This document shows positions 4,819 through 58,645 of a DNA stretch of 64,000 nt, in pieces. Within the stretch, counting starts at the first letter, position 1, and each line of letters begins with the position of its first letter. The stretch is from contig PUQB01000224.1 of NCBI GenBank assembly GCA_003024785.1, forward strand, positions 236,061 through 300,060, in the 5' to 3' direction. The DNA is from Selaginella tamariscina. Its lineage: Eukaryota > Streptophyta > Lycopodiopsida > Selaginellales > Selaginellaceae. The position numbers and the translations under genes were made by a program. The notes beneath the pieces were generated by a model. The model saw only the letters and a program-made list of their open reading frames with translations, ran no database searches and was not told the origin of the DNA.

Positions 4819-6090
4819 ATCAAGGTGAATGACATCACTAAGACACAGATGACATAGAAGCCAGTAGTGATGTGGAAGTGCAAACCCCACACTTTGTTGG
4901 ACAAAGGAACCAAAAACCTAAAGCATACTTTGATTGCTGCCAGGATCTTCAAAAACTAATGATGGTTCTCATTACTCCAGATGCGTCATATAATCAGCCT
5001 ATTTGGATGGGTCAAATTATCGACACACTGAAGTAATCACAAAAAATAGTATTGTTAAGGTTGCATGGTTCAAACCACAAAAAAGGCGACACGAAAGGAG
5101 AGCGAAAGATATAATGGATGCCTAGAGAAACATGGTCTTCCAATCAAAAAGACCCAGCATGTTTTATAAATGTTAAATCCATTCGATATGGGGTGGATGT
5201 TAAGAAGATAAAATATCATATATTTAATATTTATAATTATTATAAACTCTTTAATAATAGTACCAATTGTTTACTTAACTATATAATTTAAAAAATGATA
5301 TGGAAGATTGACTATATTATTATAGGATTTTATATATATATTATTACTACTACAAATTTTAATTAATAATGTATATTAAATATTAATATTTTAATAACAA
5401 CATCAATATTTATATAATGTACCTCTTATGCCTTCCTATTGTTATATTTAGGCAATATATTATATAATTTAATACCTTCTACTTTTATAATGTTCATTAA
5501 TTTTTTGTTCAAATGAATGCATAATTTATAAAGGGTAGAATACAAAATAGAATATTTAAAGAATATTCTATTTTCAAACATATATTCTAAAGAATATTCC
5601 TTTAATATTAGAAAATGCTAATTAAATAGCTAAAATTGCTAATTAAGGAAATGGGACTACAGCCATGCCCATTTTAGTTACAACTTGCATTTACTGAAAG
5701 GCACAATCCTGCACAATAACCTTGGTTTCAAGTTGTTAGAAAATATGGTTAGGTCGAAGGATCTGGATTAGGCGTACATTCCAAGGAAGACTCGATCCAA
5801 TGCAACCGCATTATAAGTTCGATAAGAATGGACTGAGATTGAGCTGGTGGAAGTCTATGATATGAAAAACTATCCCAAGAGGTTGATGTAGTAACCCATC
5901 ATCAGGTTAAAAAGATCAAGAAGAGCCATCATTAAGTAAATAAGTAGTGAACTCACAACCTAACTATGTATCAACAAGTTGTATTAGCAGGATTAGCCAA
6001 GAAGGAAATTTGAAGAAAATTTTAGACAATTCTACAGATCATCAATTGTTGAAGATAGCCCACACCATGTGACCCTCGACTACCAACGAG
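4819..6090. other. Non-coding stretch with GAATATTC cluster
   Basis: No supportable gene is seen. The 4,820-5,200 part still looks like decayed coding sequence. 5,210-5,530 is AT-rich. 5,536-5,605 holds three GAATATTC-type motifs. Its reverse complement (GGAATATTCTTTAGAAT) matches the left block at about 476-490 (GGAATATTCTTTGAAT), so it may be the right-hand subterminal region of a first mobile element. 5,640-6,090 shows nothing I recognise. Confidence 0.4.
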
Positions 6091-6117
6091 GATTAGCAAA
6101 AACCGGGCTTTGTACAA

Positions 6118-6264
6118 CGGGCTTTTCGCATATTCCCGAATATTCCAGGAATATTCTGTCAAATAAATGGGAATATTCTAGAAATTCTGCCAAGTAGATT
6201 ATCTTTAACTTTCAATATAAATGCGACCAACAATTGAAAAACGTTAATTATTTGCCGACTAGAC
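6118..6264. repeat. Left terminal/subterminal region of transposon copy 1
   Basis: GGGCTT at the outside is followed by GAATATTCC (6,138), GGAATATTC (6,149) and GAATATTCTAGAA (6,171-6,183), then TTGCCGACTAGAC at 6,252-6,264, just beyond the transposase stop codon. The right end repeats this order in inverted orientation. GAATATTCTAGAA is also a perfect three-unit heat-shock element (alternating nGAAn pentamers). Confidence 0.6.
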
Positions 6265-6268
6265 TTTA

Positions 6269-9200
6269 CTATACGACTGGACTTAAAAGGTTGCAGGTTC
6301 GATTTGCGCTTGCAATCAACCAATAACCGATGCACTTCTGCTGGAGTAAGGGTCCGCTCTGTAAGAAGTAAGTAATCGTTGGGTCCAATCCAAGAACATG
6401 AGTGTACACAAAATACATGTGTTGGCAGGGACTCCGTTCTTGGCTTTCTGAAAGTTGCACAAGTGCATGACGGAACAATAGAAATTGTTATCTTAGCAGA
6501 TGCATGCCTGCAGAGACAATGAAGGCCTCAGTCTTCCTCTTGAACCACCTCCACATTGTTGATCCGACCTTGAAGAATCTTTGCCTGGTTGTAATGTTTC
6601 TTTCATGTTCTTGGACATTCTTGTTGTGTTCGCACACTCCGTCCATGGTATGTTGGTACCTATGTGCTCCCTCTCCTCTTGGTGGTGATGGTGTTCGATC
6701 CATTCGGCTACTACTGTCATCTACCATTTCTTCAAATCCCTCCAACTTGAATCCTGCTTTCAGAAGAGCTTCAACCTCATTTGCATTCAAGTTTTGTTCC
6801 TTTTTGAACTGGCCAAACCTCTGGAACTTCTGGAATACTCTCAGGAGGAATCCCTGCATATGGTCGTCTGAAGCAACAAGAATCGCGTGGGCAGAACCAT
6901 AGCATCTGATGAGTGAACTCAATGTTCCCAAATGCATTTGTATATTGCCGTCTACCGTGAAATCCTGGTGCCGGTACACGATGTGGATATCCTATGGGTC
7001 TGCCACACTTGCTGTTACCGTCCTGAGTGAGACCTAGACATTTCACCTGACTTGCCTCCCCAATGCGTCTGATGGCCCACTGAGTCATCAACGTCTCTCT
7101 TTCAGTGACATTGACATCTTGAAACTTGAGTTTTTTCCTGCGTGCATTTGGGATGACTTGTTCTGCATATTGTGTGTCATGTCTATGTGTACGAAGTGCA
7201 TCAATCCCATGGTCCCCAGTTGACGGTTGACGAACGGTTCGAACACGAACATTTGTTGTAGAGGCAAACTCTGGACTTGCAAGATGCTCTTCATCACTAA
7301 CAAGATTTGCAAAAGTTGTTGGAGACACTGATTTTCCCGCTGAAAGTTTCTGCTGTGCACGTTTCAGAAGAGTTTCCATGGAAGGACCTGTGCCTGAATA
7401 TCTCCCTTCAAATGATGCCTTGACCTTTGCACTTTGGAAAACAGCATCTGTTAAATCTAACATTGTTGCCTCCAACAAAGGAACACGCTTCGTCAGCCTT
7501 GCTCTTCGTGCTCTTGCATGAACAACTTCGGAGTTGTTAGTGGTAGGCACATTCGCAACACCATCTTCTGTCAAGTCAATTATCTCTGTCATGGAAATAT
7601 GATCTTCATGTCTTGCCCACCATGACAGCCATGTTTGCAAAGCGCTAACGTTACTGGACCTGCCTTCCCAAAATGACTCCAACATTACTCGTCGTTCCAA
7701 CTTATCTTGGTTGGTTAGTGCTGCAGGCCATGAGCGTGCAAGGTTCATGTGCTCCTCCCTGTGTTCCTCAAGTATCCACTTCTTTGTAACTTGACGCACT
7801 GACTGCATGTAATGGAACAAACAACTCCTTTCTCTTCCTCTCATCTTTGACCCATTGTTGAAAACTTGACGCAATGCTAACCAAATTGCACCTGACTCAT
7901 CTGACATGAACCCCGCAAAGTTCACATTATGAAGTCCTTGCTTGCTGCACACTTGAAGCATAGTGTTCAAAAATTTGATCACCGCCACACTATCCTCCCT
8001 GATCATGTCACCATAAGCAAGTGTCACCATCGACCTTAAACTACACAAACATAAGTGCATTATATTAGTAAGTATTTTAAAACATAGATATGTTAATACT
8101 TACAATGGATCATAGAGATGTATTCCCAGTGTACACCAATCATCAATACGATATGTGTGGTCTAGCACCACCCACTGCTGTTCGAGATCACCTCCAGATT
8201 GACACCTTCTAATGTAGTCTATTCCGGATCCTGGGCCGGCAACGTCATTTTGAAGATTAAAGGCTGCTCTTCAGCTCCGTTGAGGTCCATTCCGGGTATG
8301 TGGATAACATGTATGAATGGGATTGATAGCTTCTTCTTTAACTGCAGAAGTCCTTCGTAACCTTCTTTGAAACGAGTGTCTCTTGTTCTAGCCTGAGATA
8401 TCCATTCTCTTGTTCTACATTGGAAAGGTTAAGCATCTCCAAAAGGAAATAATAATTTTTTTGCTTACCGGCGGTGATTTGTGAGTGGTAGTAGATCTGA
8501 CAGAACCTTGTCGTATGATACATCTCCAGAATCTGTTACCAGTTTTTCCAAAATTATATTGCGTGCTGCTTGAAACTCTATGACACGTTGATTAGTTCTT
8601 GGGGTTGCAGCGACTGCTTTGTTGATTGTCTCCTTAGCTCTGTCTTTAGAGACCATGGATTCGGGTGGTCTACGTGGGTGTTGATGTTCTCCAAGATGGA
8701 TGAAAAGCCTCGTGCATGTGATATCATCTGGAATTATGTAATATGCAACAACGGAGCATGTCTGCACTAGAAGGGGCTCATTGTTGCAATGCACACACTT
8801 CATTCCAAGCACTCTACCATCTGAAGATAACTGGACTTTATCAATGGTGCCCTTAAATTGGCAGTCATTTGCTTTCTTACTGAAGCTGATGAACGGACAT
8901 GTTTCCTTTACGCATTTCATGTGGCCAATACATGAACTGCGACTAACACGAGCTGGAACATTCCAATGTGTTGTGCAGCGTTGAGTCCAGTAATCACACC
9001 CATCCTTCCTATTCATCCCTTTGTACTTGTCCTTCATTGTTTCGTGTGCTGGCAACTCGTAAATCACATTTCCGTTGCAATCTTCTGGGACCTCAGCAAC
9101 TTGCTGAATCGATGACGAGACCACCAGTTGCTTCCCAATCCTACATCTCTGACTATTGCGAAGTATTGTTACCATAGAATTGTCCCGATCTGTTGTCTCC

Positions 9201-9448
9201 AACCGGAATAGCGGTCCTTTGGAAGGAAGAAGTGTGTAATACACAAAACTGCTAGCTCTTGCCCCTTCTGGTTCTACCTCAACATTCGCAGCATCTCCAC
9301 CAACAACAGACATCAAATGCAGCACTTTAAAAGATTGCCAAGGTGGAATGTCAAATGCAGACCTGAGATCTGTTTCAAAGACAAATGCAATACCATCTTC
9401 ATCTGCAGGGAAGTCCTTGTCAACACCATTGTAGCTGATTCTTGCCAT
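6269..9448 (-). CDS. MULE-like transposase with Cys-rich zinc domain and SWIM finger (frame breaks)
   Basis: The start is set at MARISY because the second copy begins MARVTY at the equivalent place. Order of parts: an N-terminal region of unknown fold; a Cys-rich block (CIGHMKCVKETC, about 8,890-8,945) that resembles the WRKY/GCM1-type zinc domains seen in MULE transposases; and the transposase core with VVLDHTYR (about 8,150-8,173, first Asp), GFMSDESGAIW (about 7,885-7,915, second Asp) and CLFHYMQS (about 7,803-7,826, the CxxH signature). A C-terminal SWIM finger (PSCTCATF, then CQHMYF near 6,410) follows. Introns follow NHRR (about 8,469) and YDP (about 8,100), at the same places as in copy 2. 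Single-base shifts near 8,250 and within 6,420-6,480 break the frame, so this copy is either defective or carries sequence errors. By family, the product would cut and join the element's inverted ends. Confidence 0.75.
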
Positions 9449-9540
9449 GTAGCAAAAATGGAACAAACAAAAGTTAAAATTCAAAGACAATGAACATATT
9501 ACACACGATGTAAGTCGTGAGGCAATCATTTCATTGACAA

Positions 9541-9928
9541 ATATTAAAAATAATATTAATTGCGTGCGTCTGGGTAGAAGAGTGAAATTAATTTACTGCG
9601 TCTGGGTAGGTTTTTTGTAAATTAAAAAGTTTTACTATGTACAAGTGGCGATCATGCATGCAATATGTTTACAGAAATTAGGTTGGTTTTTAATTGATTT
9701 AGGGCGGCTAGGGTTTTGCAATTAGGGCGGCTAGGGCAGCTAGGGCGGCTAGGTTTTCGTGGAGCAGGGGCGCATTTGGGGGCATAGCGTGGAGCAAGTG
9801 TGGCTCCAGGGATTAATCACAATAGGCTTCCATTGAGGGGGTGAGTATTTTCTGATTTCTTCATGATCTGCTCATGATCTTTTCATGATCTGTTCATCTT
9901 TTTACATCTCTTCACAGTTGCAAGAAAT
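9541..9928. promoter_or_regulatory. Divergent promoter side of transposon copy 1
   Basis: This gene-free stretch lies between the transposase start and the palindrome array. It holds short tandem TTAGGGCGGCTAGGG units (9,697-9,760) and repeated TCATGATCTGTTCATG-like words (9,855-9,895). Both genes of the element must be driven from 9,450-10,490, so regulatory sites are expected here. No TATA box is certain. Confidence 0.4.
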
Positions 9929-10410
9929 CCGAGTCGGCCTGCCGACTCGGACTGACTTCGTTGTCCGTCCCAGTCGGCAGGCCGACTGGGGTGGACTGTT
10001 CCAGATCCAGTCAACATTTTGACCGGGGTTGACTGTTCCAGCCCCAGTCAGCATTTTGACTAGGGTTGACTGTTCTAGTCCCACCTAGCATTTTGACTGG
10101 GCCTTGCTTCGTTCCCAGTCCCAGACTGGGCCTCCCTTTGTTGCCAGCCCAGTCGGCATGCCGACTGGGACTCCCTTTGTTGCCAGTCCCAGTCGGCATG
10201 CCGACTGGGACTCCCTTTGATGCCAGCCCAGTCGGCATGCCGACTGGGCCTCCCTTTGTTGCCAGTCCCAGTCGGCATGCCGACTGGGACTCCCTTTGAT
10301 GCCAGCCCAGTCGGCATGCCGACTGGGACTCCCTTTGATGCCAGTCCCAGTCGGCATGCCGACTGGGACTTACAGCAACTGCTCTCTCAGTCGGCACGCC
10401 GACTGTGAGG
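9929..10410. repeat. Array of about 12 palindromes, core CAGTCGGCATGCCGACTG
   Basis: Long self-complementary units recur at about 40-bp spacing. The outermost read GAGTCGGCCTGCCGACTC (9,931-9,948) and CAGTCGGCAGGCCGACTG (9,971-9,988). Three degenerate units with an ATTTT centre occupy 10,005-10,105, and near-identical units with the GGCATGCC centre fill 10,148-10,370, separated by the constant linker GGGACTCCCTTTGATGCCAG. The last unit is at 10,386-10,410. The array lies between two divergent genes. Reading frames through it encode only repeat peptides and are not genes. Confidence 0.9.
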
Positions 10411-10490
10411 GCTAGTATGTTTTTTTAATTTTTATTAAACATCTTTGAACATTTATTACAGTTTTTTGTTAAACCTTATTGCTTTTGTAG

Positions 10491-13400
10491 ATGCGCTCTT
10501 CACAACGTTTACAAGAAAAGAAGATGAAGGAGCCTACTGAGAGAGAAGCAGAAGCTAGAGCTGCAATTCAGAGAGGGCGTCGGGGTCGTGGGAGAGGAAG
10601 TAGGAAGCTGGCTGTGGTTCAGGAACAAGGACCTTCAAGTGATGCTCCAGTTGAACAGGCAAGCCAGCAGGACTGGTCAGGAGAGCAAGAGGATGTAGTT
10701 CAACCCCAACAAGAACAATCAGACTTTGTTGAAGAAGTTGAGGATGATGTCTTACCACAGGAGACACAGGAGCAGACAGAAGGCACACAAGCCTCATGCG
10801 CAGTGACTTTGTCGAGTGACGAAGAGGATGAACCCAAGAGCAAGAAGAGACGACGCAAAGCTGCTGGAGATTCAGAGGCTGCTAAGAAGAAGAAGAAGGG
10901 AAAGCAGAAGTGCCAGATAATGAGGAAGTTTACAACATTGCAGCCAGCATGCATTCGGAGAGTGCAGTGCGTCTTCTCGCGAAGATCACAATCCGAGAAT
11001 ATGGAGAGGCACCGGATGTCCCTATTTGCCGAATTCTGGGAAATGAGCAGGTGCGGAGAGTCAATCCAGCGGATCTGGAATCTTTGACTAGGAGTTTCAA
11101 GAAGGCAGTTGGTTATTTGCGCAACACCACTCAGTTCATCCTTCAAGTTGGGGACCCCATGACAGATGCAGATCTGGCAGCATTGAGAAGCGATGAAGCG
11201 ATGTATGCTCAGCATTTGGCTTTTGAGGAGGAGCTTCAGTCCGACATGTTCCGGCAATGGGCACCAATGCTTTCGATGAAGAAGTTCATCTGTTGGGATG
11301 GTAATCACAGGCTAAAGGTGCTTCAGAAGCTGTACACAGAAGACACGGAAGATAAGAATTCAGTGGGCAGTGAGAGTGCGTTCAGGCTTCATCCGTGCTG
11401 GGGTCATGGATAATCTTCAGCTTGTGACAATGTTTCAGCAAATTAATAGGTAAACATAGTGACCTCTAGATCATAGGATTAACTAACTTCGAGTTTTCAA
11501 ATATGCAGTTCCTCCGCAACGGCAGTGCACACCACATCTTCTGCTATCTGTGAAGACATGTTGCACCAGTGAGGAGGGCACAGCGAAGATCTTGGCCAGG
11601 CTCAGTGACAAGGAACGAGATGACATAAGAAAGTGGAAGGAAAGCGACTGGACAACAAGCTTGGCATCCACTTCCGAATTTGATCTGTGCAAAGATTTTT
11701 TTGAGGTACCACGTCTCACACTTATATACTTAGTTGATTACGTCTGTGAATTACAGAGTGAGATTGAGGATGATCTTGAGAAGGCTGCAAGGGCATCCAA
11801 AGGCAACAAATACCAGGAGCAACAACAGGTCTACATTAAGCATGACAAGCGCATGATGAAGATCTTAGCCATCATCGATCCTGCATTGGGTGAAGAGTGG
11901 TTCGACAAGGTGACCCAAATCACATGGAAACAATGCAGATGGATGGGGTTGGAAAAGCTGTACGCGCTTTCAAGGGCGAGAATTCCAAACGAGACGAGAA
12001 TCATGTACTTCAATAAACTGGTACGTCTCGATCTGAAGAGAGAGCAAGAGACACTTGGATTGCCGGGTGTTCAGGATAAGGAGTGGATAAGGTGGTTTAC
12101 TATCGATTTGTATTGGCGGGCAATCAGAGAGGAGGCAGTACAGATTCTCACGGGACTCATCGAGGATGGCGAGTGGAGCAGGCCGGTTACAGATTTCACG
12201 ACTTGGTACGATGAAGTGCGGGTAAAATGCAAGAACGTGATGTTCCAGCCATTCCATGAGTGTGTGAAGTTCACTTACTCCATAGAGCCGAAAGAGTTCC
12301 TCGAACACGAAGAGACAGCAAGAAGGATGATTTGGAGGTAAGGATGATCTTCTTGACATTGTTACATTCTGACACTACTATATGTTCATTACAGGTATGT
12401 CGCAGCGAGAAAGGTGCCTCACACACAGACTATGGTATTCTGGTCAGATTACATGGAAGCACCACACATGTGGTCGAAGACAAGATCTGGCCTGACAGAG
12501 TTCGAGCGTGTACACGTACCGTTCTGGCTTGATTATCCACCTGGGCAACCACCAACATGGGAGAAGGATCTCTACAATGAACACTCAAAAGATCTCCCAT
12601 GCATCTCATGGGATCCGGCAGAGGTCGACTTCATTAAGAAGACAAAGGCCAAGGCAAAGCGGCGTCAGCCTGTGCAGCAGTCAAAGAAGACCTCAGATAC
12701 AGTAGCTGGCACCTCCACTACTCGCGATCCAGCTGCCTTCTTCAATTTATCTGAAGTGCTACCATCGCAGGGAACCATGGACATCAAGGATGACTTGGTC
12801 ACATTCGTCCCTTCACTTGCTACAACTCGAGGTGATAATTTCTTGGCGATTGATGACATCGAGGAGATGCAACAGGCCGTGCTCACGGATGAGAAGGAAG
12901 AGGAGGTTCCTGACGCTAGACTGGTTCCTTATAGAAAAGTTCAGACACAGGTGGCCAGGTACCATACAGCTGACAGCCAGACTCGCTACCAGCATATTGC
13001 GGGAGAATATGGTTTCAACTTGGTGATCTTCGACCTTCCAAATGGGACCTTGCCAGGAAATACAACGAGTGATACGCCATACCTCTACCTTGATCCAGTG
13101 AAGTTCGATGAAGCACTCCAGTTTGCAGGTATGCATATGGCTGCAAATGGTTGGTTGGTTGTGTTTGCTGCAGCAAACACCTGGGATCAAGTTGTCCGAG
13201 CTGCAAGTGTGGTGGACCTTCAACTTGCTGCAACGTACTACATCTACAGAGGGCGTGGTTGGGGCTACCGCAACAAGATGAAGGTACTTTTTTCTTTATT
13301 CATGAAGTTCATTAATGATTTTGATGTTTTAACAGGAGAGCATCCTGCTCCTTCTTGTCTTCCAAGATGCATCTAGAGGATTGCGCGATAATCCACTGCG

Positions 13401-13798
13401 TTTGTCATCAACAATTCTTGTTGATAATCCTGAGCGGTTCCAAGAACCATGGTAGGCATTTCATTTCAACAATTTAAGTATTTACCATTATCTTCACATG
13501 CAGGATGGACTACCAACCGAAGAGCACTCGATTGATGCAGCTCGTGATAGAACGACTCACCCGGCCAGGTGATCTTATCTGGGATATAGGCAGTGGTACG
13601 GGGTCCTCAATGCTTGCAGCTATCGAGCTGGGGAGAAACATTGTTGGGACTGAGAAGAACCCTGAGCTCGGGAGAATTGCTATGAACAGGATTAAAGAGA
13701 ACATCCAGCCAGAGGAAATCCCAACCCAACCAATAGCGACGTCAAGTAGGACTGGTGGTTCACGAATTGCAGCATTGCTCAATCGTAAGAAGAAGTGA
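10491..13798 (+). CDS. ParB-like domain fused to DNA N4/N6-methyltransferase-like domain
   Basis: The start ATG follows a CTTTTGTAG acceptor after the array. The first ~135 residues are charged and low-complexity, with a Lys-rich run that could localise the protein to the nucleus. A ParB/sulfiredoxin-like domain follows (10,910-11,350): VRRVNPADLESLTRSFKKA and WDGNHRLKVLQKLY match the partner-protein pattern with its GxHR-like signature. A middle helical region (11,550-12,340) has no family I recognise. The C-terminal part is a beta-class DNA methyltransferase fold: NLVIFDLPNG at motif IV (DLPN, 13,032-13,043, where DPPY is expected), ANGWLVVF at motif V, and WDIGSGTGSS (about 13,580-13,610) as the AdoMet-binding motif I, followed by GRNIVGTEK. 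Introns lie at about 11,451-11,507, 11,707-11,756, 12,339-12,393, 13,284-13,335 and 13,453-13,503. Frame changes near 10,905, 11,380 and 11,550 are unexplained. Confidence 0.7.
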
Positions 13799-13887
13799 CA
13801 AGTGTTGAATTGTACTCTTTGGTGTTGAAATAAAACTTTAATAATACAGTATAAACATGGCTATGATTAAATATTTTTTGTTGTTAA

Positions 13888-13996
13888 TTGCCGACTGAGC
13901 CAAAATCCTAAATTCTAAGAATATTTAGGAATATTCTAAGAATATTCTGGTAGATTCTTTAGAATATTCCGGGTCCAAGCCCGGAAGCCCGGAAGC
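13888..13996. repeat. Right terminal/subterminal region of transposon copy 1
   Basis: TTGCCGACTGAGCC at 13,888-13,901 lies just after the methyltransferase-like gene. It is followed by GGAATATTCTAAGAATATTC (about 13,928-13,947) and TTTAGAATATTCC (13,958-13,970), then GC-rich GGGTCCAAGCCCGGAAGCCC. Read in reverse complement, it matches the plan of the left end. Confidence 0.6.
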
Positions 13997-14194
13997 CCTC
14001 TTTTGTCGGGACTCGACTTCCTTGTATCAATATCTCATGCCCAGTCTACATTCAAATAACCATGGAGCTATGGAGCCTTGGAGCTGCCCGTGTACACCAA
14101 GACATGCTCCCTCATCCCTTGTAGGTAGAATAGGATGCGCTTCACCACTTCCCAGTGACCACTCCCAAGGTTGGCCATATACTGCACAACCTGG

Positions 14195-14575: not shown

Positions 14576-17500
14576 CTCGTGCAGACGACCAAGTCCTATT
14601 TATAAGACATTGCATCCATGTGCCTTGCTACATCGTTGCACTACTGTCCCATCTCATGTGTCAACCTCACTGAGGGGTCCGTTAGTGTTGGGAGCTACCT
14701 TGCAGCCTGCCATATTGTACCAATGTAGGATATCTACTATGTACCTCAGCTGTCCCAAAGTTAGGATCTGTCTCCCCTGTTCACTGGACTTGAATCCCCA
14801 TAAAGCTTGAGATAGGACCCAAGTCCTTCATCTCAAACTTGACAGAGAGTTGCTACTTCAGCTATTGAAGGAGCACGATGCTATTGGAGAAGATGAGGTA
14901 GTCATCCACAGACAAGGCCAAGATGATTATGAACTCCCCAGCACCTAGATGTTTTGTCCAGCCTCATTCTTTTGGAAAGCTAGTAAGACAAGAAATTTGT
15001 CAATGCGGCAATACCAAGCTCTAGGGGATCGCTTCAACCCGTACAAAGTCTTCTCCAGCTTGTAGACCAAGTGTTCCTCCCCTAGTTGCCCATATCCCTC
15101 AGGTCGGGTGACGTAGACATGCTCCTCAAGCCCACCATGGAGAAAAGCAGTACACACGTCCATCTAGTCATTCTCTGTAGTGAGAGCCAGGAGAATCCGC
15201 ATCAAGGGCAACTTGAGCACTAGTGCATAAGTGTTGGTGAAGTCCAAACCTGTGATCTAGCTGAACCTGCAAGCAATGAACCAAGCTTTAAACTTGATGC
15301 CGCCATTGGTAATAATTTGATGGTGAAGATCCATTTCATAGTAACGACATTCCGTCCCTCATGGTAGGGCACCATCGTCCAGGTCATGTTCTTGAGCAGC
15401 GATAGGAATTTTGCATCCATCGCTGCTCGCCACTATTCAACGTTTGGTTTGCTGAGTGCCTCAGTAATCGTCAAGGGATTGGGGCCAAACTAGCACGCTC
15501 ATCGACCTTTGAGGCGAGGTAGAAGTGGGCCTTTTCAAGCCTATACTGAGCCAATCTAGCTATTGCTTAGACTCCTCCAATTCCAATTGTTTTCTACTAG
15601 GTTGCACGACCCAACCCAATCTCATTGTTCATGCACCGACATGGGAGTAGCTCCACCGATCTTCTTGCCACATTCAACTGCAGGAGCTAAGGCTAGAATG
15701 ACGCCCTCGAGAGTGGCCTTAGTTGCTATTAAAACTACCCTTGCACCGAAAACTATGACAGAGATGACAAACTCTAGACACCACAGCTTGCAGAAAAGAT
15801 AGAACCAGCTGGGAACCAGATGCCTAGCTCAAGTTGCCATCCACCATTGCTACCACGTCCTTAGAACTGTCCTCGCACCAATTGTTCACCAATTCAAAGT
15901 CGATAACACGCTTGGCTACAAGTGCCGGCGGCAACCCCCATAAACTTCAACCTCGTTGAACACCATGTCCCTATTCATGATGGCTTGCATGTGTGTCCAG
16001 ACGAGTAGCTTGTACACCTTGGATGTCATTGCATGCTAGAAGCACGCACTTGGTGGCACGCACATCTAGCTTCCTGTAGAGCTACTCATGGATGTGAGAG
16101 AATGCCACACACCTAAAAGTCATGATGTGTGCCACGTTCGAATAGTGCCATGTCCAGCTTCATAGGGCGTCATGCCATCCATAGTGCTAGTAGGGGGCCG
16201 GTTCCTGAGGGAGGCTGCCATCATCACTGCCTTGCCCTAGTACATCTTACATAGAAGAGCATACTACGAAATGCCTCTTCCAACATCTTGTTTATGCTCT
16301 GCCACCCCATTCTAAGAAGGGAAGTAGGGGGAAGAGTATTTGTGCACAATCCTTGTGTGCTACAAATAGTCAACAAAAACACCACTTACGTACTTGCCAC
16401 CATTGTTAGTGCGGATGCAGCAAAGTCTGCATCCTGTCTGCAGCTTTGCCTACTACTTGAATGCTAGAAAGTGGTCAAAGACCTCTGCTTCACTGCCATC
16501 AACACCACTGTGACGAAGTGTGAGTAGTCATCCATAAAGGTGATGAAGTATTGCCTTTTCCCTAGTGTAAGTGTGTCTAACGGGCCACATACATCCGAGT
16601 GCACCAGCTTCAATGGTGCCATTGTTGGATCACTCATAGCCTTAACAAGGTAGGACTCTTTATTGACTTGGCTAGGATACAAGGTTCGGAAAACTCCAAT
16701 TTCTAGTGAGATGGGATGGCAATCTCGTTAGCAAGTTGAGGGAGCAATCAAAGCACCTAGGCATGAGCATGCCCCAGGTGGTTGTGCCACAATTGCAGGC
16801 CTATGGGGTGAGCGTCGAATCATAGCCACCATGGTCGTGTGCACCCCAAAGTAGGTAGAATGCTGCTTCTAGCTTTATAGAGGCCTCCATAGCAAGTGTT
16901 GCGTGCTACAACTTGACTAGAGAAGTTGAGAACCTCACACTCATGCTCATCAAAACAGAGATGGAAACTTGCATCACAAATGCGTCCACTAAGAGGAGCA
17001 TCTCCTGGAGGCCTGGCACGTGGTAGATGTTCTCAATCTCTTGAGGGAACCTAGAAGTTGCACACAGATGTTGTCAATGCCCACAAGCTTATGAGTGGAG
17101 CCCTCCACTGAGTTCACCACATCCATCGAGGAGAGAAAGCGATAGGTCACAAATACCTCACGCAAGGGTGTGGCATGGAGATTGGCCCTAGAGTCTAGCA
17201 AAGCACTTCACCAGCATTGGGATATGTTGGTAACTTCTGCAAAGACTACAGCCTGCTCACATGAGGAGTCGCCCGATTGCTTCCTTAAGCTCATCCTAAT
17301 GAGCTAAGAACCATAGGCGTCCCTCATCCTCACATACCCCTAGCATGGTGTATGTTGCTCCTATTGACCTCAACCTTGTCATCGGCTATCTTGTTGCGAC
17401 TATTGTTGCTGCCCAATACGCCTTAAGTAGTCATGAGCAAGGTGCCCCATTTGGTCACACTCATAACAGGTCTAATCTCCTAATCTTGGCCTTGACCCTG

Positions 17501-29200: not shown

Positions 29201-29349
29201 TGTATATCTCACATTAATAATCTTTTCATGAGAGGCAGGCGAGCGCCAGCGCACACACAAACACATTCACGATCGAGTTCTTCATTGTCAGCCGCTTAGT
29301 GTAAATCAAAACTTTTATTATAAACATTATTATTTCAGACAGAACACGT

Positions 29350-30620
29350 TCACGCTTTTGTACCTGAAAAGATTTCTCACTAAGTCACATGAATTACAAA
29401 TAGAACAATATACTTACAATCGTCTGCCACCCATCCAATTCGAAGGTTTTCAAGGTCATATATTATTTGTTTTTTTGAAGAACAATATCTGCATTGAGAA
29501 CACTTTAAGGGGAAAATTTAGAAAATGTTATACCTCCAAACAATGTAATTGCGCTATCTTCGTCTGAAGGACTCCAAGCTATGCATTGAACAGTTGTACC
29601 ATTTGACTATAAAGAAGACAAGATAAAACTTTTTTCAAGTTAATTAATTCTTATTAAATTACCTCCACTAGATAGACATAGTTGTCAGGGCCCAACTCCA
29701 TGGTCCCCTCCACCGAATGTAAGTGTTACATTTGGAAAACTTGCAGGGAGGTTTGCATTACTTCTGATTAAATTTGACAATCATATTGTAATAATGGCCA
29801 ATAATAAACACTTACCTGTCCTTTAAGATGAAGCAGTCGGTTTCAACTAGGCTGCAGTGCTTGAATTTGCTATCTGCATAAAACTGTAAAGCTCTCTCTC
29901 TCCACATGTGTGTGTGTGTGTGTAGAAATAATGCATATAAAAGTGACTAACAGCTTGTGCAAAGAGGCCATAGACTTTGCTCGGCAACAATGCAAGAGTA
30001 GTTCCACTGTCAAAAATTGCGCCACTGTTGTTGTTGAGCTTGTTCAATTCAAACTCCTTTTCACTAACAGGTAACACTTTGACCCCACCTTGTACTGATT
30101 AATTTTACATTGTAAAGTGTCCTGCAGTTGAAATATTGCCCATATTAGTAGTATTAATTATTACTTATTAATAATGTAATATGTAGCTTACGATTCTGTA
30201 ACCAGTGGTGTATAAACTGTACCAGCAATCTCATCAGATTCACCAATTATTAGTACCCACCACCTTGATAGTGAACGTTGCCACCTGTGTGGAGAGGTGG
30301 ACACTGGAAGGCCAATTGTCCCAGGAGGAACAAGCCCAAGGGCAATTTTACATTGTAAAGTGTCCTGCAGTTGAAATATTGCCCATATTAGTAGTATTAA
30401 TTATTACTTATTAATAATGTAATATGTAGCTTACGATTCTGTAACCAGTGGTGTATAAACTGTACCAGCAATCTCATCAGATTCACCAATTATTAGTACA
30501 CACCACCTTGTTTTTCTCCACTTAAACAGTGAGAAAATATTCTTTTAGTATGTTACTGCTTGAAATCTGGTTCGGGACTGATACATCAAGTTGTCCAAAT
30601 CCCATAATCCCATTCCTATA
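29350..30620 (-). pseudogene. Truncated aspartic protease, copy B
   Basis: Only the C-terminal half remains: SVPNQISSSN (about 30,580), the IIGESDEIAGTVYTPL region (present twice because of a local duplication), the second catalytic site DSGTTLALLPSKVYG (about 30,010-29,965), a SPSDEDSAITLFGG exon, and the C-terminus ending at 29,350-29,352. The DTGS site and everything upstream are deleted, so it cannot make an active pepsin-like enzyme. It shares the frameshift after SVPNQ with copy A. The NGTTVQC exon is in frame here but shifted in copy A. Confidence 0.8.
30101..30503. repeat. 160-bp direct duplication inside protease copy B
   Basis: 30,101-30,260 and 30,344-30,503 are nearly identical (offset 243 bp). 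They are separated by about 83 bp that partly reads, on the minus strand, like the GFG...SV region of the same gene family. The arrangement duplicates an intron and the start of an exon, and further inactivates this copy. Confidence 0.85.
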
Positions 30621-32738: not shown

Positions 32739-32782
<44 letters not shown>

Positions 32783-46775: not shown

Positions 46776-46783
46776 ATACAACG

Positions 46784-46925
46784 GGTCTCGGCGAAAAGGA
46801 GGCTCCAGCTCAGGAGGCTTCTTATTATTCTAGTATATTCGCGGATATTCCAGGTATATTCTAGCATATTCTAGAATATTCTCAAGAATATTCTAGAATA
46901 TATAAGTTTTTTAATATGCCGACTG
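46784..46925. repeat. Left terminal/subterminal region of transposon copy 2
   Basis: GC-rich outer part, then TTCTAGAATATTC (about 46,869-46,881), GAATATTCTAGAA (46,886-46,898) and TGCCGACTG (46,917-46,925). The GAATATTC units are in phase with TTCTAGAA, giving runs of alternating GAA and TTC with two-base gaps. Confidence 0.65.
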
Positions 46926-46958
46926 CTTAATAAAGCATTATCCTAAACCCTAAACCAT

Positions 46959-49900
46959 TTATCCTTGTAGCACCGGTGGGTCATGAACTCTGCTGCAATT
47001 CACCAGCAAACGGTGGACCTCCATCTCACTGAGCGATCGCCTTTGTAGAAAATATGTGACGTCCGGGTTCAAGCCAAGCACACGGCTGTAGACGAAGTAC
47101 ATGTGTACACATGGGCTCCAACTTTTGCTCTTCTGAAAGGTAGAACAACTGCATGTAGGATAAGTACTAATAGTCACCTTTGCAGAGTCATTTCCTGCCG
47201 ACACAACGAAAGCCTCCTTCCGTCCTCTAACTGTCACTTCAACATTTCTCACACGACCTAAAAACGTCTTGGCCTTGTGGAAATTCTTCTCTTGTTCCTT
47301 AGACATTTTTGTTGGAGTCCGGACCATACGTCCTTCGAAAGGTGGAATTGTTGTAGATCCAGCTCCACGTGGTGGCGATGGTGTTTTGTCCTTCTGACCC
47401 TCATCTACTCTTCCTGCCGTCCCCTGTAAACCTTCCAGAACAAAGCCTGCATCCTGTAGTTCTCTGACCTCCTCACTTGTCAGCTTCGTTTCCTTGAGCA
47501 CAGGCCAAACCGTTGGTGGTGTTGGAATTCGTGACTGAAGAATTTTGCCGTTTGGCCGCGTGAAACACCCTGAATCTTTTGGGCAGAACCACATCATCTG
47601 TTGTACATACTCCTCATTCCCCAAGGCATCAATGTACATTCGTTTTCCATAGAATCCTGGTGCTGGCACTCTGCTTGGATAACCGATTGGTTTTCCACAC
47701 AGAGCAGTTCCTTCCTGATTCATCCCCAAACACTTAACCTTACTGATGCTCCGATTCGTCTGATGGCCCACTCTGTTTGAGCAATCTCTCTCTCCAAAAC
47801 CTCTTCGAACCTTAACCTCTTTCTCCTGTTGTTTTGGACCACCCGCTCTGTGTACTCTACATCATGTCTGTGTGAACGTCGAGCATCAGACTGTTTGTTC
47901 CTGTGACTGTTCTCCTAACAGTTTGCACTCGAACGTTAGTGGTACTCGTGAACTCCGGGCTGGTCAAGTGTTCCTCGCCTTCCACCAGATTGATAATTGT
48001 TGATGGAGATACACTTTTCCCCTCAGAGAGTTTGCGTTGCACTCGTTTCAACAGAGTTTCCTTCGAAGGCCCTGACCCTGTATACCTCCCTTCTATTGCC
48101 GCTTTCACCTTCGCACTCTGCATAACTGCATCGGTGAGGTCTAACATTGTCGCCTCCAGCAGTGGTACTCTTTTGGCCAATCTTGCTCTTCTTGCTCTCG
48201 CATGAATCACTTCAGCATTGTTTGTAGTTGGAACGCTCGCGAGTCCTTCTTCTGTCATGTCTCCCAGTTCCGCCATGAGATGTGGTCCTCATGCCTGATC
48301 CACCAAGACAGCCATGTCTTCAAAGCTCGAATGTTTGACGCTCGTCCTTCCCAAAAAGACTCGAGAATTGCTAGTTGTTCTTTCTTAGATTGTTCATTCA
48401 GTGCTGCAGGCCAGGCACGAGCAAGCTTCATGTGTTCTTCGCGATGTTCTTCTGCGATCCATTTCTTTGTCACCTGACGCACGGATTGCATAAAGTGAAA
48501 CAGACAGCTTCTTTCCCTCCCTTTCATCTTTGCTCCGTTGTTGAATACTTGGCGCAAGGCTATCCATATCGCTCCAGCCTCATCCGACATGAAACCAGCA
48601 AAGTTGACATTCTCCAAACCCTGTTTCTTACAAACCTCTAGCATTGTGTTCAAGAACTTCAGCACTGCAACATTATCTTCGCGGCACATATCTGCGTAAG
48701 CTATAGTCACCATGGATCTGACACTGTAAGAGAGCATTAGATAACAAGATTAGAAAGTGTTATGAAGAGTTTTACAACTTACAATGGGTCATAAAGGTGT
48801 ATTCCAATTGTCGCCCAGTCTGGTATGCGGTGCGTGTGGTCCAGAACAACCCATTGATCATGAAGGTCTCCTCCACTTTGACACCTTCTGATGTAGTCAA
48901 CTCCTGAACCCGGTCCCTCAACTGTCATTTTGAAGATCAGAGGCTGCTCCTCAGCACCATGCAGTTCCATCCCTGGAACATGTATGACGTGAATGAAAGG
49001 TATTGGCAACTTTGTCTTCAGCTCCAGAAGACCCTCGTAACCCTCTCTAAAGTGTGTCTCCTTCTGTCTTGATTGTGTAATCCAGTCCCGAGTCCTAAAG
49101 GAAAGGTCACGTCAGTGTGTAGAGATCTAAAGAAAAATACCTTCGATGGTTTGTAAGAGGTTCAAGTTTTGAGAGTAAACCAGTGTACGAGACTTCTCCT
49201 TCTTCCTTGAAAAGTTCTTCAAAGATGAGCTCACCGCAGCTTGAAACTCAATCACTCGTTGATTGGTTCGCGACTGCTCTTTACCACGTTGCTGACACTA
49301 GATCTGGCACGCTGAACGTTTGAAGCTGACACTGAGGGGCTGACTGGATGCTGATGAACACCTCTGTGAATGAACAACCTTGTAAATGTCGTCTGGCAGA
49401 ATGTAGTACACATAAGCCGGACAAGTGTGCACTAGCAATGGCTCCTCTCCACAATGCTTACATTTCATGCCTATTACTTTGCCTGTCTCAGTTGTCTTTG
49501 CCTTCTCCACAGCACCCTTGAAGTGACATTCATTTGCTTTCTTCTCAAAAGCCAAGTAGGGGCAGGTAGGATTGATGCATTTGAGATGTCCGACACATGA
49601 ACTTCGACTGACTCGCGCCGGAACATGCCAGTGTGTTGTGCTCGGGTGTGTCCAATGGTAGCAGCCATCCTTGCGATTCATCCCCAAGTACTTCTCTGTG
49701 CTTTCTTTCTTTGGGGAAGTTCGTAAATGACATTTCCATTGTATATCTCGGTAGTTCAGAGACTCGTTTAACTTCAGACGAACCAATGAGATCCTTCCCT
49801 ATCCTACATTTGTCTGCTCTTAGAAGACACACCAGCATGGATTCCTCACGCTCCTTTGTCCGCAACCTGAACAACGGGCCCTTTGCCGGGCACAATGTGT

Positions 49901-50111
49901 AAAAGACAAACTGGTTTGATGCATTGCCTTCTGGTAACAACTCCACATCTTCTCCAGAACTCGCAGAAACTGACATCAATTGAACCACATGTATACTGAA
50001 CCAACAAGGAATGTTGAAAGCAAAGTGAAGATCATGTTCAAACACAAAAGCATTTCCATCTTCATCGACTGGGAAATCTTTGTCAATGCCTTCATAGGTA
50101 ACTCTGGCCAT
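46959..50111 (-). CDS. MULE-like transposase with SWIM finger, copy 2 (frame breaks)
   Basis: Starts MARVTYEGIDKDF at 50,111. A Cys/His-rich block (CVGHLKCINPTC, about 49,605-49,570) is followed by the MULE core: VVLDHTHRIPDW (about 48,850-48,815), GFMSDEAGAIW (about 48,600-48,568) and CLFHFMQS (about 48,510-48,487). A canonical SWIM finger follows, CSCSTF (about 47,154-47,137) with CVHMYF (about 47,111-47,094), i.e. CxC then CxH. The protein ends at 46,959. Introns after NHR (about 49,097-49,141) and YDPL (about 48,725-48,781) match copy 1. Frame changes occur near 49,700, 49,300, 48,270 and 47,770-47,860. By family, it would bind and cut the element ends. A current ability to do so is doubtful if these breaks are real. 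Confidence 0.78.
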
Positions 50112-50229
50112 GACAACGCAAGGAGAAAGCTCGGTGGTTTAGGAAAGCAAAGCAAAAGATTAAACACACTCTCGTTCGCCAAAAAAAATTATAATCGTTG
50201 ATAATAAACGTGAATACACTTTGTATATA

Positions 50230-50580
50230 ATTAATTCTACTGCCCAGCTCACAGTGTTCTTAATGCTGTCCTCTCTAGTATCACCGATTTAATTTAATTA
50301 CTACCTTTTATGATTTGAAATATCTTCACCTTTACCAATTATTCACATATTTTAAAATAAACCCTAAATATTAATGTCACATTTATTCCAGGGTTCACTG
50401 TTTTCATTGCGGCTAGGGTTTTTTGGTAGATAGGGTTTACTGTTTCCACTGCGGCTAGGGTTTTTTCAATCTCAGATCTGAGTTTCTGAAATCTCCTCCA
50501 AGGGGCTTGAGAGGAGCGGCCCATCCATTTCGAGTCGATTCGTGCAGCCCCAAGTAAATCAATCGAGATTTCTGTGCCGA
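50230..50580. promoter_or_regulatory. Divergent promoter side of transposon copy 2
   Basis: This is a gene-free stretch between the transposase start and the inverted-repeat array. It contains a near-duplicate pair of GGTTTACTGTTTCCACTGCG-like sequences (50,392-50,462), and TGCGGCTAGGGTTTTTT occurs twice. It must contain start signals for the two divergent genes, though I cannot assign a TATA box. Confidence 0.4.
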
Positions 50581-50581
50581 T

Positions 50582-51118
50582 TTAGATTGTCGGCACCATC
50601 CTGCTCAGTCGGCGGCCACAAGGTATGTGCAATTTCTGTATTTTGATTTGCGGCTCAAATAATTTATTTTTCAGAGATAAAGGGTCTTCCCATTTGTGCC
50701 GACTGAGAGCGGCGCACCATCCTGGTTCAGTCGGCAGCCACAAGGTATTTTCGATTTGTTTATTTTTTCTTTGCGGCTCAAGTATCCGTATCACAATGTT
50801 TTTTTTTTCAGAGTTAATGTGTCTTCCCATTTGTGCCGACTGAGATGACACCATCCTGGTTCAGTCGGCAACCACAAGGTATTTTGAATTTGTTTATTTT
50901 TTGCTTTGCGGCTCAAGTATTTCTTTTTTCAGAGTTAATGGGTCTTCCCATTTGTGCCGTCTGAGAGGGACGGCACCATCCTAGCTCAGTCGGCACCATT
51001 ATCTCTTCAGTGCCGTCTGAGAGGGTCGGCACCAACCTGTCTCGGCAGGATATGCTTTTCTACATCTCTGTGCCGACTGAGAGGGTCGGCACCACTAGCT
51101 TGAGTCGGCAGCCACAAG
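50582..51118 (+). repeat. Inverted-repeat array amplified as leader exon/intron units
   Basis: GTGCCGACTGAG ... CTCAGTCGGCA hairpin pairs recur across the region. Several are embedded in repeated units of 121-137 bp that look like small exons (50,675-50,744; 50,812-50,878; 50,933-51,118). Each exon begins after a TTTTTCAG acceptor with AG(A/T)TAA, ends in CCACAAG, and is followed by a GTA donor. The last exon splices to 51,185, ten bases before the start codon. The region is thus both a palindrome array like that of copy 1 and a tandemly amplified 5' untranslated exon. Confidence 0.8.
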
Positions 51119-51194
51119 GTTAGTCATCTTTGTTTTTTTTTTATTTTGTCTCCTAATCAATTGACTTGTGTGTTTGCTTTCCAGAGTTTACAAA

Positions 51195-54100
51195 ATGGTG
51201 AGAGCTTCAAAACGTCTACTAGAGACTGCGCCTGATGAAGAGCCACGGGAAGAGAAGAGGATATCGAAGCAGAAGCGAGGCAAGAGAGGAGAACCATCTA
51301 ATGTAGCAAAGGATCCTCCAGTGACTCAGTCTGGAGTAGTACCAATTGAGCAGGAGCAGCCTCCATCAACCATCACAGATTTCCCGGAGAGCTCGTCGCA
51401 GTTGCCTCCTTCATCCGCTGAGGTTGCAGTCCTGAACGAGCAAGTGCAGATGACAGAGGCAGTTGAAGCTAGCAGGACGACTTGGAGGAGGCAGTCAGCA
51501 AAAAGAGAGGCGCGGGAAAGCTGATCCAAAAGGCAAGAAGGCGAAGAGCGATAAGGAGCCGAAGGAGTTATACAGCATACCGGCTAGCCTGCATTTGGAG
51601 AGCTCAGCGAACCTGCTCGACAAAATTACTGTCAAGGGACTTGGTGATCCTCCTGATGTGCCCATCTGTAGAATGCATTCGAACGAGGTGGTTCGACGAG
51701 TGAACCCAGGGGACTTGGACAGGCTGGTGTCATCGTTGAAGAAGGCTGGTTATCTACGCAACACGGCCTTGTTCATTCTGTCCATCGGAGATCGACTCAC
51801 TGCTGAGGAGCTATCGGAGCTGTCGAAGGACACGGTTCAGTACGAGCAGCACCGGTCTTTCGAGCAAGCTCTTACTCAGCCGGAGTACAAACAGTGGGCT
51901 TCAAGGCTCTCAAACCGAAGTTCAGCTGCTGGGACGGGAACCATAGGCTACAGGCTTTGCAGAAGCTGTACCGGGAGGATGCAGAGGACAACCAGCGATG
52001 GGCTATTCGTTCGATCGAGTTTCATCTCCACGGAGAACCTCGACAATCTTCAACTGGTTTCGATGTTCCAATCGATTAACATGTGAGTATTTTCTTTTCT
52101 TTTTGTTAAGAGTCTAGACTTATAGTTTTATTGAACAGATCTTCAGCAACATCTGTGAAACAACGCTACCAACATATTCTCCTCGCTGTAAAGGCGGTCT
52201 GCACTAGTACCGAAGGAACTCAGAAAATCCTCGAGTCACTCACGGAGGTTGATCGTCTTGAGGTGCGGAAGTGGAAGGAGAGTTCAACAGGAAAGACGGC
52301 TTGGCATCCTCTTCCGAACCTGATCTGCGCAAAGATCCTTTTCAAGGTAACCTCCGATTTGATTGATAGGAAAGAAGTTTTTAACTTATTCTATGTGCAG
52401 AACGAGATCGGATGATCTCGACAGAGCAGTCACCAGTGCTAAGGGCAATCCACAGTTGAGCTGAACCTGAAGCAGCTAGTGTACAAGAAGCATGACAAGC
52501 GTATGCACAAGTTCCTCTCCATCATAGACCCAGACTTGGGGGAGGAGTGGTTCCAGAAGGTGACGAACATCTCTCATAAGCAGTGTCGCTGGATGGGCAT
52601 TGAGAAGCTGTACGCGATGTCAAAGGCGAAGATTCAAACATGCTGCGACTCCGATACTTGAACAAGCTCACCGTCTCGAATCCAAGGCAGAACAACAGAC
52701 ACTTGGGCTACCAGGCATGCAGGACAAAGAGTGGATCAAGTGGTTCACCTTGGACTTATATTGGAAGGCTGTGCGCGAGGAAGCCATTCAGATCCTTAAG
52801 GGGTTGCGAGAGGATGGTGAAGAAGTTGGAACGGATGTCGACTTCATGAGCTGGTTTGACGAGATGCGAACTCGGAGCAAGTGCCTGGTCTTTCATGCCA
52901 TACTTCACTTATTCGATGGAGCCGAATGAGTTTCTGGAGCGTGAGGAGTCTGCACGTCGGATGATATGGAGGTAAGCTTTCATTCCAGATTGCTACTGTC
53001 TGACTTTGTGTTACAGGTTCATACTGGCGAAGAAAATGGCACCGTCTCAGACGATGAAGCTGTGGACAGATCATACAAGCGAGCCTCACATGTGGTCGAA
53101 GAGCAGAGGAGCTCTAACACCGTTCGAACGGGAGCATGTTCCATTCTGGCTCGACTGTCCGTCGCAACAGCCACCAGCTTGGGAGAGCTCACTATTCGAC
53201 GTGCACGGCAATGATCTACCAGCGATTGTTTGGGAGCCGGACGAAGTAGAGGCTATCAAGAAGAGCAAGATGAAGAAGACGGTGCGGAAGACAACTACAC
53301 CTGCAAAGGGATCGGGAGCGGGACCAAGCTCTTCTACAGCACCTCCGCGGCAATCGACTTTACAATCAATGAGGTGCAGCCACTTGTAGCTAGTTTGGAC
53401 ATCAAGGACTGATGACCTTCATCCCGACCCTGGCTGCATCCCGTGGATCCTACGACCTGGCTGTGTGCGATATGGAGGAGATGAGCAGGTCTTTCTTCGA
53501 GCCGGGTGCTTCCCAGACAGAGGTGTACACCAAGCTCCGACAACAGGTTGACAGACTACATACGGTGAGTCACAAACGGTGTTCCAGGAAGTGGTAGGTG
53601 AATACGGCTTCAACCTCATCATCCTCGACTTGCCCAATGAGCTTGTATATGGAGGTGCTAGCATCAACAAGGACATTGTGCAGCTAGATCCGGTGAAGTT
53701 TGAGGAGGCCTTGCAGTTCAGTGGAATGCACTTGGCAGCGAGTGGTTTCATGGTCGTCTTCGCGAGTTCTCCTTCTGTTTCGGCGGTGATTCAGGCGGCT
53801 GCGGTAATCAACTTGGAGGTTGCAGGGACTTACAGCGTCTACCGTGCACGAGGCTGGGGATACCGTGACAAAATTAAGGTAAGCTAGCTATTCAAGTTCA
53901 AGTTTAACTTGGTCTATGTGGCAGGATAACTTGTTAGTTCTCTTGGTGCTGCAAAGCTCTGAGAAGAAGTCGAAGAGGCCAAACCCTCTGGCGTTGACGA
54001 ACACGATCCTCGTCGACACACCGACCGTTTTCAGGAGGCTTGGTAAGGAAGTACTTTGCTTTGTTTATCCTAATGGAAGTTTGTGCAGGATGATGATTCA

Positions 54101-54386
54101 ACCGAAGAGTGTTCGACTCATGCAGCTTTTGATCGAGCGTCTCAGTAGACCTGGCGACCTAGTCTGGGATATTGGTTCCGGAACCGGATCATCGTTGTTA
54201 GCTGCCGTCGAGCTCGGAAGGAATATTATAGGAACCGAGAAGAGTTTCGAACTCTCTAGGTTGGCAACAAACAAGCTCGCAGAGAACATTAGACCAGAGG
54301 AATTACCTACTCAAACACCTCCACGTCCAAGCCTAGCTGGTGGTTCGAGAACTGCAGCTTTACTTAAGATGAAGAAGAAACTTTAG
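51195..54386 (+). CDS. ParB-like domain fused to methyltransferase-like domain, copy 2 (frame breaks)
   Basis: Starts MVRASKRLLETAPDEE with a charged, Lys-rich N-terminal tail. The ParB-like domain reads VVRRVNPGDLDRLVSSLKKA (about 51,690-51,750) and CWDGNHRLQALQKLY (about 51,927-51,971). The middle region shares HDKRMHKFLSIIDPDLGEEW and CRWMGIEKLYA with copy 1. The methyltransferase-like end has NLIILDLPNE (DLPN at 53,627-53,638, in place of DPPY), ASGFMVVF, and WDIGSGTGSS (about 54,165-54,194) followed by GRNIIGTEK. The stop is at 54,384-54,386. Introns correspond to those of copy 1 (for example about 52,082-52,138 and 52,347-52,401). About six one-base frame changes (near 51,500, 51,895, 52,000, 52,455, 52,640 and 53,400) interrupt it. 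No homologous cellular plant gene is known to me with this domain pairing. Confidence 0.7.
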
Positions 54387-54463
54387 CTAATGTATATTGA
54401 GTAATAAATTAAGCTAATATAAAAAAGAATAAGATAAATACAACAGTTTTACTAGAATTTTTT

Positions 54464-54594
54464 TGCCGACTGAGGCCAATACTGCCGACCAGAAAGAATA
54501 TTCAAAATATTCTAGAATATTCTAGAATAAATATTCTAGAATATTCTAGAATATTCGAGCCCAGGCCTCCTGGGCCCCAAAATGGCGGCACTCC
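54464..54594. repeat. Right terminal/subterminal region of transposon copy 2
   Basis: TGCCGACTGAG (54,464-54,474) and TGCCGACCAG lie inside. Next come two blocks of phased GAATATTCTAGAATATTC (54,507-54,528 and 54,531-54,556) and a GC-rich hairpin GCCCAGGCCTCCTGGGC (54,559-54,575) near the outer end. Confidence 0.7.
54531..54556. promoter_or_regulatory. Heat-shock-element-like block (six alternating GAA/TTC units)
   Basis: TTC-TA-GAA-TA-TTC-TA-GAA-TA-TTC runs without a break in two-base phase, which is the consensus for heat-shock factor binding (alternating nGAAn pentamers). Five or six contiguous units is more than most functional plant elements have. It could equally be only a transposase-binding palindrome array. 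The sequence cannot tell these apart. Confidence 0.5.

Positions 54595-58610: not shown

Positions 58611-58645
<35 letters not shown>

Follow-up and report, generated by a model that had tools for sequence, protein, structure and literature searches.

The window analysed here, a 64,000-nucleotide stretch of Selaginella tamariscina contig PUQB01000224.1, contains two copies of a DNA transposon of approximately 7.9 kb, each of which carries a transposase gene and a divergent gene encoding a protein with a methyltransferase-like and a putative ParB-like part (the methylase-like gene). The two copies represent two subfamilies of this one transposon, and the two genes move together. The element family is young, recently multiplied and multi-copy in the host genome, and its two subfamilies are deeply diverged. 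Its non-coding DNA holds an array of TGCCGACT sites that is restricted to the element within the sequence examined. The chances are about even that the methylase-like gene encodes a regulator of the element's own, which would bind these palindromes as an analogue of the VANC anti-silencing system. The element copies and their genes are located as follows.

6088..14014, element copy 1 (subfamily 1), approximately 7.93 kb, ends set by other genomic copies
46783..54593, element copy 2 (subfamily 2), approximately 7.81 kb, both ends possibly 1 base further right
6297..9448, minus strand, transposase gene of copy 1, three exons (9448-8468, 8413-8103, 8036-6297), with a D..D..CxxH core and a C-terminal SWIM-like finger
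46962..50111, minus strand, transposase gene of copy 2, three exons (50111-49140, 49093-48782, 48722-46962)
10491..13798, plus strand, ParB-like/methyltransferase-like gene of copy 1, six exons (10491-11450, 11510-11705, 11757-12338, 12396-13283, 13336-13452, 13505-13798), exon boundaries good to a few bases
51195..54386, plus strand, ParB-like/methyltransferase-like gene of copy 2, six exons

In both window copies the transposase gene on the minus strand and the methylase-like gene on the plus strand, which encodes a protein of approximately 1000 residues, start back to back. Introns are found at matching positions in both copies, five in the methylase-like gene and two in the transposase gene, and all 14 are readable as GT-AG, confirming a preliminary description made from the sequence alone, which had reported divergent genes with the same order, orientation and intron positions. 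Copy 2 resembles copy 1 in gene order, introns and type of ends, and subfamily 2 is likewise multi-copy. The bounds first proposed for copy 1 (6097-14009) are replaced by 6088-14014, and those proposed for copy 2 (46784-54594) are as good as 46783-54593; the copy 2 flanks CTATACAAC and CTGTACAAC match at 8 of 9 positions, with the same score for either pair of bounds. Both window copies are broken. Introns aside, the read-through of copy 1 joins approximately three frame breaks in the methylase-like gene and five in the transposase gene, and that of copy 2 joins approximately 13 and eight, respectively.

The host genome (300.7 Mb, 1391 contigs) was searched with the proteins of both genes. The methylase-like protein of copy 1 gives at least 146 exon matches (best 52 of 3174 candidates), a large majority of them 90-100% identical to copy 1 and a minority 61-89%. 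The corresponding protein of copy 2 gives at least 141 matches (best 52 of 3163 candidates), many approximately 95% identical to copy 2 and others as low as 53%, and the transposase gives at least 164 (best 82 of 2615 candidates). With at least 52 scored candidates for each subfamily, the gene pair is repeated far beyond chance. All eight whole copies that were fetched contain both genes between the same ends and exhibit 97.6-99.1% identity to copy 1 across nearly all of 6088-13998. Their alignments start at 6086-6088 in five cases, at 6112 in L063, at 6170 in L068 and at 6127 in L062, which reaches a contig end, and they finish at 13990-14017. Among the matches listed, a transposase match lies within 9 kb of a methylase match in at least 21 of 52 methylase rows, divergent in 21/21, and 61 of the 82 transposase rows have no listed methylase partner. 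The pairing count is a floor, with one row picked per copy from the best 52 of 3174 and 82 of 2615 candidates. Sixteen of those 61 transposase loci were checked, and methylase-gene DNA was found at the expected place in 15. The earlier proposal that the pairing is inherited and not an accident of insertion is upheld by these counts and by selection on both genes.

Between window copies 1 and 2 the synonymous sites are saturated (proportion of synonymous differences, pS, 0.84 and 0.81), so no ratio to the proportion of nonsynonymous differences (pN) is computable. The pN values are 0.31 for the methylase-like gene and 0.24 for the transposase gene, and both genes have been under past selection, since their proteins were kept despite the saturation. 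Within the methylase-like gene, pN is 0.30 in the methyltransferase part, 0.26 in the ParB-like part, 0.28 in the middle and 0.50 in the N-terminal tail; the tail is far less constrained, and the two named parts are constrained about like the middle. The methylase-like gene has thus long been kept as a protein.

The ends of the element are similar among copies, and the left end of copy 1 is given here.

6088..6108, left terminal sequence of copy 1, GAGGATTAGCAAAAACCGGGC

Copies begin with GAGGATTAGCAAAAACC or a close variant and most finish with TTTTTGTCGGGACTC or a close variant, so that GAG is read inward from both ends and the inverted ends are imperfect; L061 finishes with CCCGACTC. Target duplications were judged by eye in ten copies, the eight fetched and the two in the window. 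Perfect 9-bp duplications flank three of them, ATTAAAACC (L061), ATATTGCAC (L064) and TAACAAATG (L066), and two more match at 8 of 9 positions (L068, in low-complexity sequence, and window copy 2), giving 5/10 at 8/9 or better. In L065 the 9-mer is displaced by 3 nt on one side, and L062 is unassessable because it reaches the contig end. Subterminal arrays of AATATTC are also seen at both ends of both window copies (6130-6200, 13915-13970, 46830-46900 and 54495-54560), and this word is among the commonest of those common to the non-coding DNA of both copies.

The candidate binding site lies between the genes and near each end at the following positions.

9940..10396, intergenic TGCCGACT/AGTCGGCA array of copy 1, 15 half-sites, mostly in the palindrome CAGTCGGCATGCCGACTG, with six exact palindromes
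50697..51110, intergenic TGCCGACT array of copy 2, seven spaced half-sites
6253..6260, plus strand, left subterminal TGCCGACT of copy 1, 165 bp from the end
13889..13896, plus strand, right subterminal TGCCGACT of copy 1, 118 bp from the end
46917..46924, plus strand, left subterminal TGCCGACT of copy 2, 134 bp from the end
54464..54471, plus strand, right subterminal TGCCGACT of copy 2, approximately 122 bp from the end

The two window copies together have six non-coding segments, and AGTCGGCA/TGCCGACT is the sole 8-mer that occurs in every one of them; none of 1000 first-order simulations yielded an 8-mer shared in this way. The window holds 26 TGCCGACT sites, every one in element non-coding DNA (dinucleotide shuffles: mean 0.78, maximum 3), and within the elements these 26 fall in 2,937 non-coding bases, compared with none in 12,802 gene bases. 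An inverted partner is present within 40 nt for 21 of the 26. The eight fetched copies contain 11-25 half-sites and 3-10 exact palindromes each, a variation which indicates that the array grows and shrinks. TGCCGACT is absent from 26,304 bases of ordinary Mutator-like element (MULE) loci (including eight of the family L023-L030), from 9,060 bases of MULE fragments and from 14,029 bases flanking the eight fetched copies. Apart from these sites, intergenic DNA of the two subfamilies has just short or weak matches in common; the short candidate binding site has persisted among non-coding sequence that for the most part can no longer be aligned.

Three stretches of the methylase-like gene of copy 1 can be related to known domains.

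10910..11450, plus strand, ParB-like region (VRRVNP..L..S.KKA..GYLRN ... CWDGNHRL box), from motif and weak profile scores
13017..13046, plus strand, motif IV position, NLVIFDLPNG, from alignment with seven phage methylases and 28 other genomic copies
13505..13798, plus strand, methyltransferase motifs X and I (WDIGSGTGSS), Pfam PF01555 E 6.2e-10, hhalign 98.3%

By sequence, the protein has a prokaryote-type, permuted beta-class amino-methyltransferase domain. PF01555 (N6_N4_Mtase) matches both read-through proteins, with an E of 6.2e-10 on the last exon, PHROG methyltransferase families likewise match, and hhalign against seven phage methylases gives 98.3% probability across motifs X and I. 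The motif order, with IV first and X and I last, is that of the permuted beta type, and motif I is intact. The catalytic motif IV of beta-class amino-methyltransferases is (D/S/N)PP(Y/F/W). Motif IV in the element departs from this pattern: it reads NLVIFDLPNG or NLIILDLPNE, at a position where the seven aligned phage proteins read DPPY, DPPF, SPPY or DIPY. Nine phage methylase loci were fetched, and those left out of the alignment were L001 (DPAY) and L005, which is fragmentary and lacks motif IV; an aromatic residue occupies the fourth place in 8/8 readable phage relatives. DLPN is found in all 30 copies read (the two in the window, 8/8 fetched copies of subfamily 1 and 20/20 stretches retrieved with the copy 2 protein as query); it is fixed in both subfamilies, deeply separated as they are, and does not reflect decay. 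Ordinary N4/N6 methylases have an aromatic residue here that the element's protein lacks, so enzyme activity cannot be taken for granted. Of the prokaryotic-type modification protein proposed earlier, the beta-class domain is retained, whereas it is doubtful that the protein actively modifies DNA. No relative was found in the protein database with a ParB-methylase profile (best 7997 candidates by shared words) or with the methyltransferase region alone (1776 candidates). Scans of viral and GTDB contigs likewise gave no relative.

The ParB half of the proposed ParB-methyltransferase fusion is putative, seen as a motif with weak profile scores; the methyltransferase half is significant in Pfam. 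The stretch reads VRRVNP.DL..L..S.KKA GYLRNT..FIL..GD ... CWDGNHRL..LQKLY and resembles a ParB domain interrupted by an insertion. Against a ParB profile, shuffles score as high in 4/1500 and 2/1500 cases; for one control region the figure is 135/500, and two other control regions had no score. A tblastn search of the region in phages returned a single match (E 3).

The transposase is provisionally best labelled MULE-like, from motifs and the 9-bp duplication. MULEs have a target duplication of approximately 9 bp and a DDE core with D, D and CxxH, and a SWIM domain is common in them, not universal. Duplications of the MULE type, approximately 9 bp, accompany the element, and its motifs LDHTYR, SDESGAIWLALRQVF and CLFHYMQS line up in register with PF10551 MULEs of the host genome. 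A transposase profile found a single relative in the protein database (E 9e-59, best 7995 candidates), protein P0001 of Adiantum nelumboides, a fern. The MULE/SWIM transposase of the preliminary description is a probable reading, favoured by the motifs and the duplication; there is no Pfam MULE (PF10551) match in either window copy or in P0001, and SWIM (PF04434) is present in both copies below the Pfam cut-off (E 0.015-0.02). Comparison of the transposase with MULEs by hhalign gives 0.2% probability, no better than controls. With a MULE hidden Markov model, shuffles score as high in 5/1500 and 0/1500 cases for the window copies, 392/1500 for the Adiantum relative and 31, 368 and 328 of 500 for the controls, so that the score of the Adiantum protein is unremarkable. 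A second MULE profile used 12 of 17 sequences, two of them partial; one misframed and four partial or frame-broken sequences were left out. The AlphaFold model of P0001 is poor (predicted local distance difference test score, pLDDT, 41.7), and a PDB fold search with the transposase model yielded no match at E <= 0.001, the RNase H-like folds among the best 50 rows being non-significant. A separate, ordinary MULE family is also present in the host genome, for example L023-L030, with 16 equal-scoring PF10551 matches and long open frames.

In the reading of the methylase-like gene as the element's own regulator, the transposase would mobilise the element and leave behind the duplications that are observed. 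The ParB-like part would recognise TGCCGACT sites within the promoter region common to both genes and close to each end of the element. The methyltransferase-like part, predicted to bind S-adenosylmethionine (SAM), would mark those sites or serve as a non-catalytic partner domain. An occupied promoter array could keep both divergent genes expressed despite host silencing, in the manner of VANC for VANDAL, and occupied end sites may enable the regulator to promote or limit transposition. A self-encoded DNA-binding regulator fits because a conserved, largely palindromic motif array lies in the shared promoter and near the ends. Bacterial ParB binds the palindrome parS, which makes the ParB-like protein a natural candidate for the binder. 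If this reading is right, plants would have, in addition to VANC, another anti-silencing system of independent origin. A further elaboration is put forward tentatively: the element may be a self-contained ParB/parS-like system, in which a ParB-type protein would load on the palindromic array and spread across promoters and ends, and the DLPN-type domain, perhaps with changed chemistry or as a SAM sensor, would keep silencing off. Plants would then possess an anti-silencing system that descends from prokaryotes.

Several observations weigh against a self-encoded regulator of this kind. Exact 18-bp palindromes are missing from the array of copy 2. Pfam gives no ParB match in the methylase-like proteins of the window copies, and in hhalign with a profile built from 12 E. 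coli and phage ParB members the ParB-like region is the best of nine and is weak (2.0% probability, P 0.024), the match being confined to the DGNHR stretch. The AlphaFold model of the ParB-like exon is poor (pLDDT 38.7), and its PDB fold search found no match at E <= 0.001; the PDB fold searches are not used as evidence, the underlying models being poor. The DLPN motif argues against ordinary catalysis. Target duplications are absent in three of ten copies (L063, L067 and window copy 1), one of the 16 transposase loci checked lacks methylase-gene DNA where it would be expected, and the TGCCGACT sites might be bound by the transposase instead.

A possible alternative, in our view rather doubtful, is that the gene encodes a working N4-cytosine or N6-adenine methyltransferase, and that the bacterial-type mark itself, not binding, protects or silences the element. 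The significant N6_N4_Mtase match, the intact motif I and the conservation of the domain across saturated synonymous divergence are consistent with this, and so is the suggestion in PMC12477816 that proteins of this kind bind and modify the transposon which encodes them; DLPN in 30/30 copies, against a fourth-place aromatic residue in 8/8 phage relatives, is not. It is unlikely that TGCCGACT marks transposase-binding sites and that the second protein has another task, such as repair, target choice or re-insertion immunity. One site 118-165 bp from each end of both window copies is as expected of transposase sites, but the 15 and 7 sites between the genes, and the inverted partners of 21/26, better fit a regulator of both genes. 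Passive capture of a gene without a role, as occurs for gene pieces in Pack-MULEs, is very improbable: the methylase-like gene is broken in both window copies, yet pN is far below saturated pS gene-wide, five introns are kept and two subfamilies retain the gene in many copies each. The check proposed earlier, whether two separate elements adjoin by accident, was run, and despite the 21/52 listed pairings and the one locus of 16 this idea is rejected as having next to no chance, being contradicted by the eight fetched copies with both genes between the same ends, several with flanking duplications, and by the 15 loci.

The preliminary description could name no element family with this content; the arrangement is less new than that implied, given the Ectocarpus Sola1 transposon and green and red algal ones (PMC12477816). 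Sola1-1_Ec32 is described there as a DNA transposon with a divergent 1104-aa ParB-like and N4C/N6A methyltransferase protein, and transposons of brown, green and red algae are reported to carry accessory ParB-methylase genes, with a role suggested and untested; the green and red algal cases are known through that source, which cites Iyer 2011 and Petroll 2025. Because the same domain pair is reported in Ectocarpus, the ParB reading becomes more likely, the comparison being one of descriptions and not of protein sequences. As in Sola1-1_Ec32, a ParB-like (here at motif level) and methyltransferase-like protein is encoded on the strand opposite the transposase. Sola1-1_Ec32 is a 21.5 kb member of the Sola1 family in a brown alga, whereas the element described here is 7.9 kb, resides in a land-plant-like host and has a DDE/CxxH/SWIM-like transposase, 9-bp duplications and the TGCCGACT array. 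The class is therefore known from algae, and what is new is the MULE-like transposase, the land-plant-like host, DLPN and the site array. The literature surveyed, mostly titles and abstract beginnings, with Petroll 2025 and Iyer 2011 outside its scope, showed no ParB-methylase element that resides in a land plant or has a transposase of the MULE-like type.

Other known systems exhibit parts of this arrangement. VANC of Arabidopsis VANDAL localises to the non-coding regions of its own elements, where its targets form tandem repeats, and it brings about DNA methylation loss (PMC5735166). The present element similarly encodes an accessory protein and has repeated candidate sites in its own non-coding DNA, but its protein has methyltransferase-like and ParB-like parts, and the likeness is one of description, not sequence. 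Phage ParB-CTPase domains are frequently fused to methyltransferases (PMC12704722), the same domain pair in one protein; unlike those ParB-CTPase/N6_N4 fusions, the present gene is eukaryotic and intron-bearing, has a large extra middle region and DLPN at motif IV, and lies in a transposon. Bacterial-type 4mC methyltransferases of eukaryotes, namely bdelloid N4CMT and a Marchantia case cited there (PMC8885841), share a permuted N6_N4_Mtase domain in a eukaryotic genome and differ, by description, in being host genes and not element-borne. Dinoflagellate and charophyte retrotransposons carrying DNMT genes (PMC5890265) are also mobile elements with a DNA methyltransferase, but these are C5-cytosine enzymes in retrotransposons. 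Since the family is young and multi-copy, its subfamilies are diverged and the candidate site is kept, binding, modification and release from silencing are directly testable.

Other repeats are present in the window. Beside copy 1, an open frame at 14945-15163 on the minus strand appears by eye to be a piece of a Copia-type reverse transcriptase. Long inverted repeats at 32187-34145 and 57131-59189 are 84-99% complementary and lie approximately 23-26 kb apart. Direct repeats at 23883-26239 and 29303-31364 are 83-97% alike at a spacing of approximately 5.1-5.6 kb and resemble retrotransposon ends, and further direct repeats at 35627-36045 and 41098-41466 have a spacing of approximately 5.4 kb and contain simple repeats. 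Repeats with GGGATTAATCCC palindromes occupy 1238-2027, beside an inverted repeat at 1317-1497.

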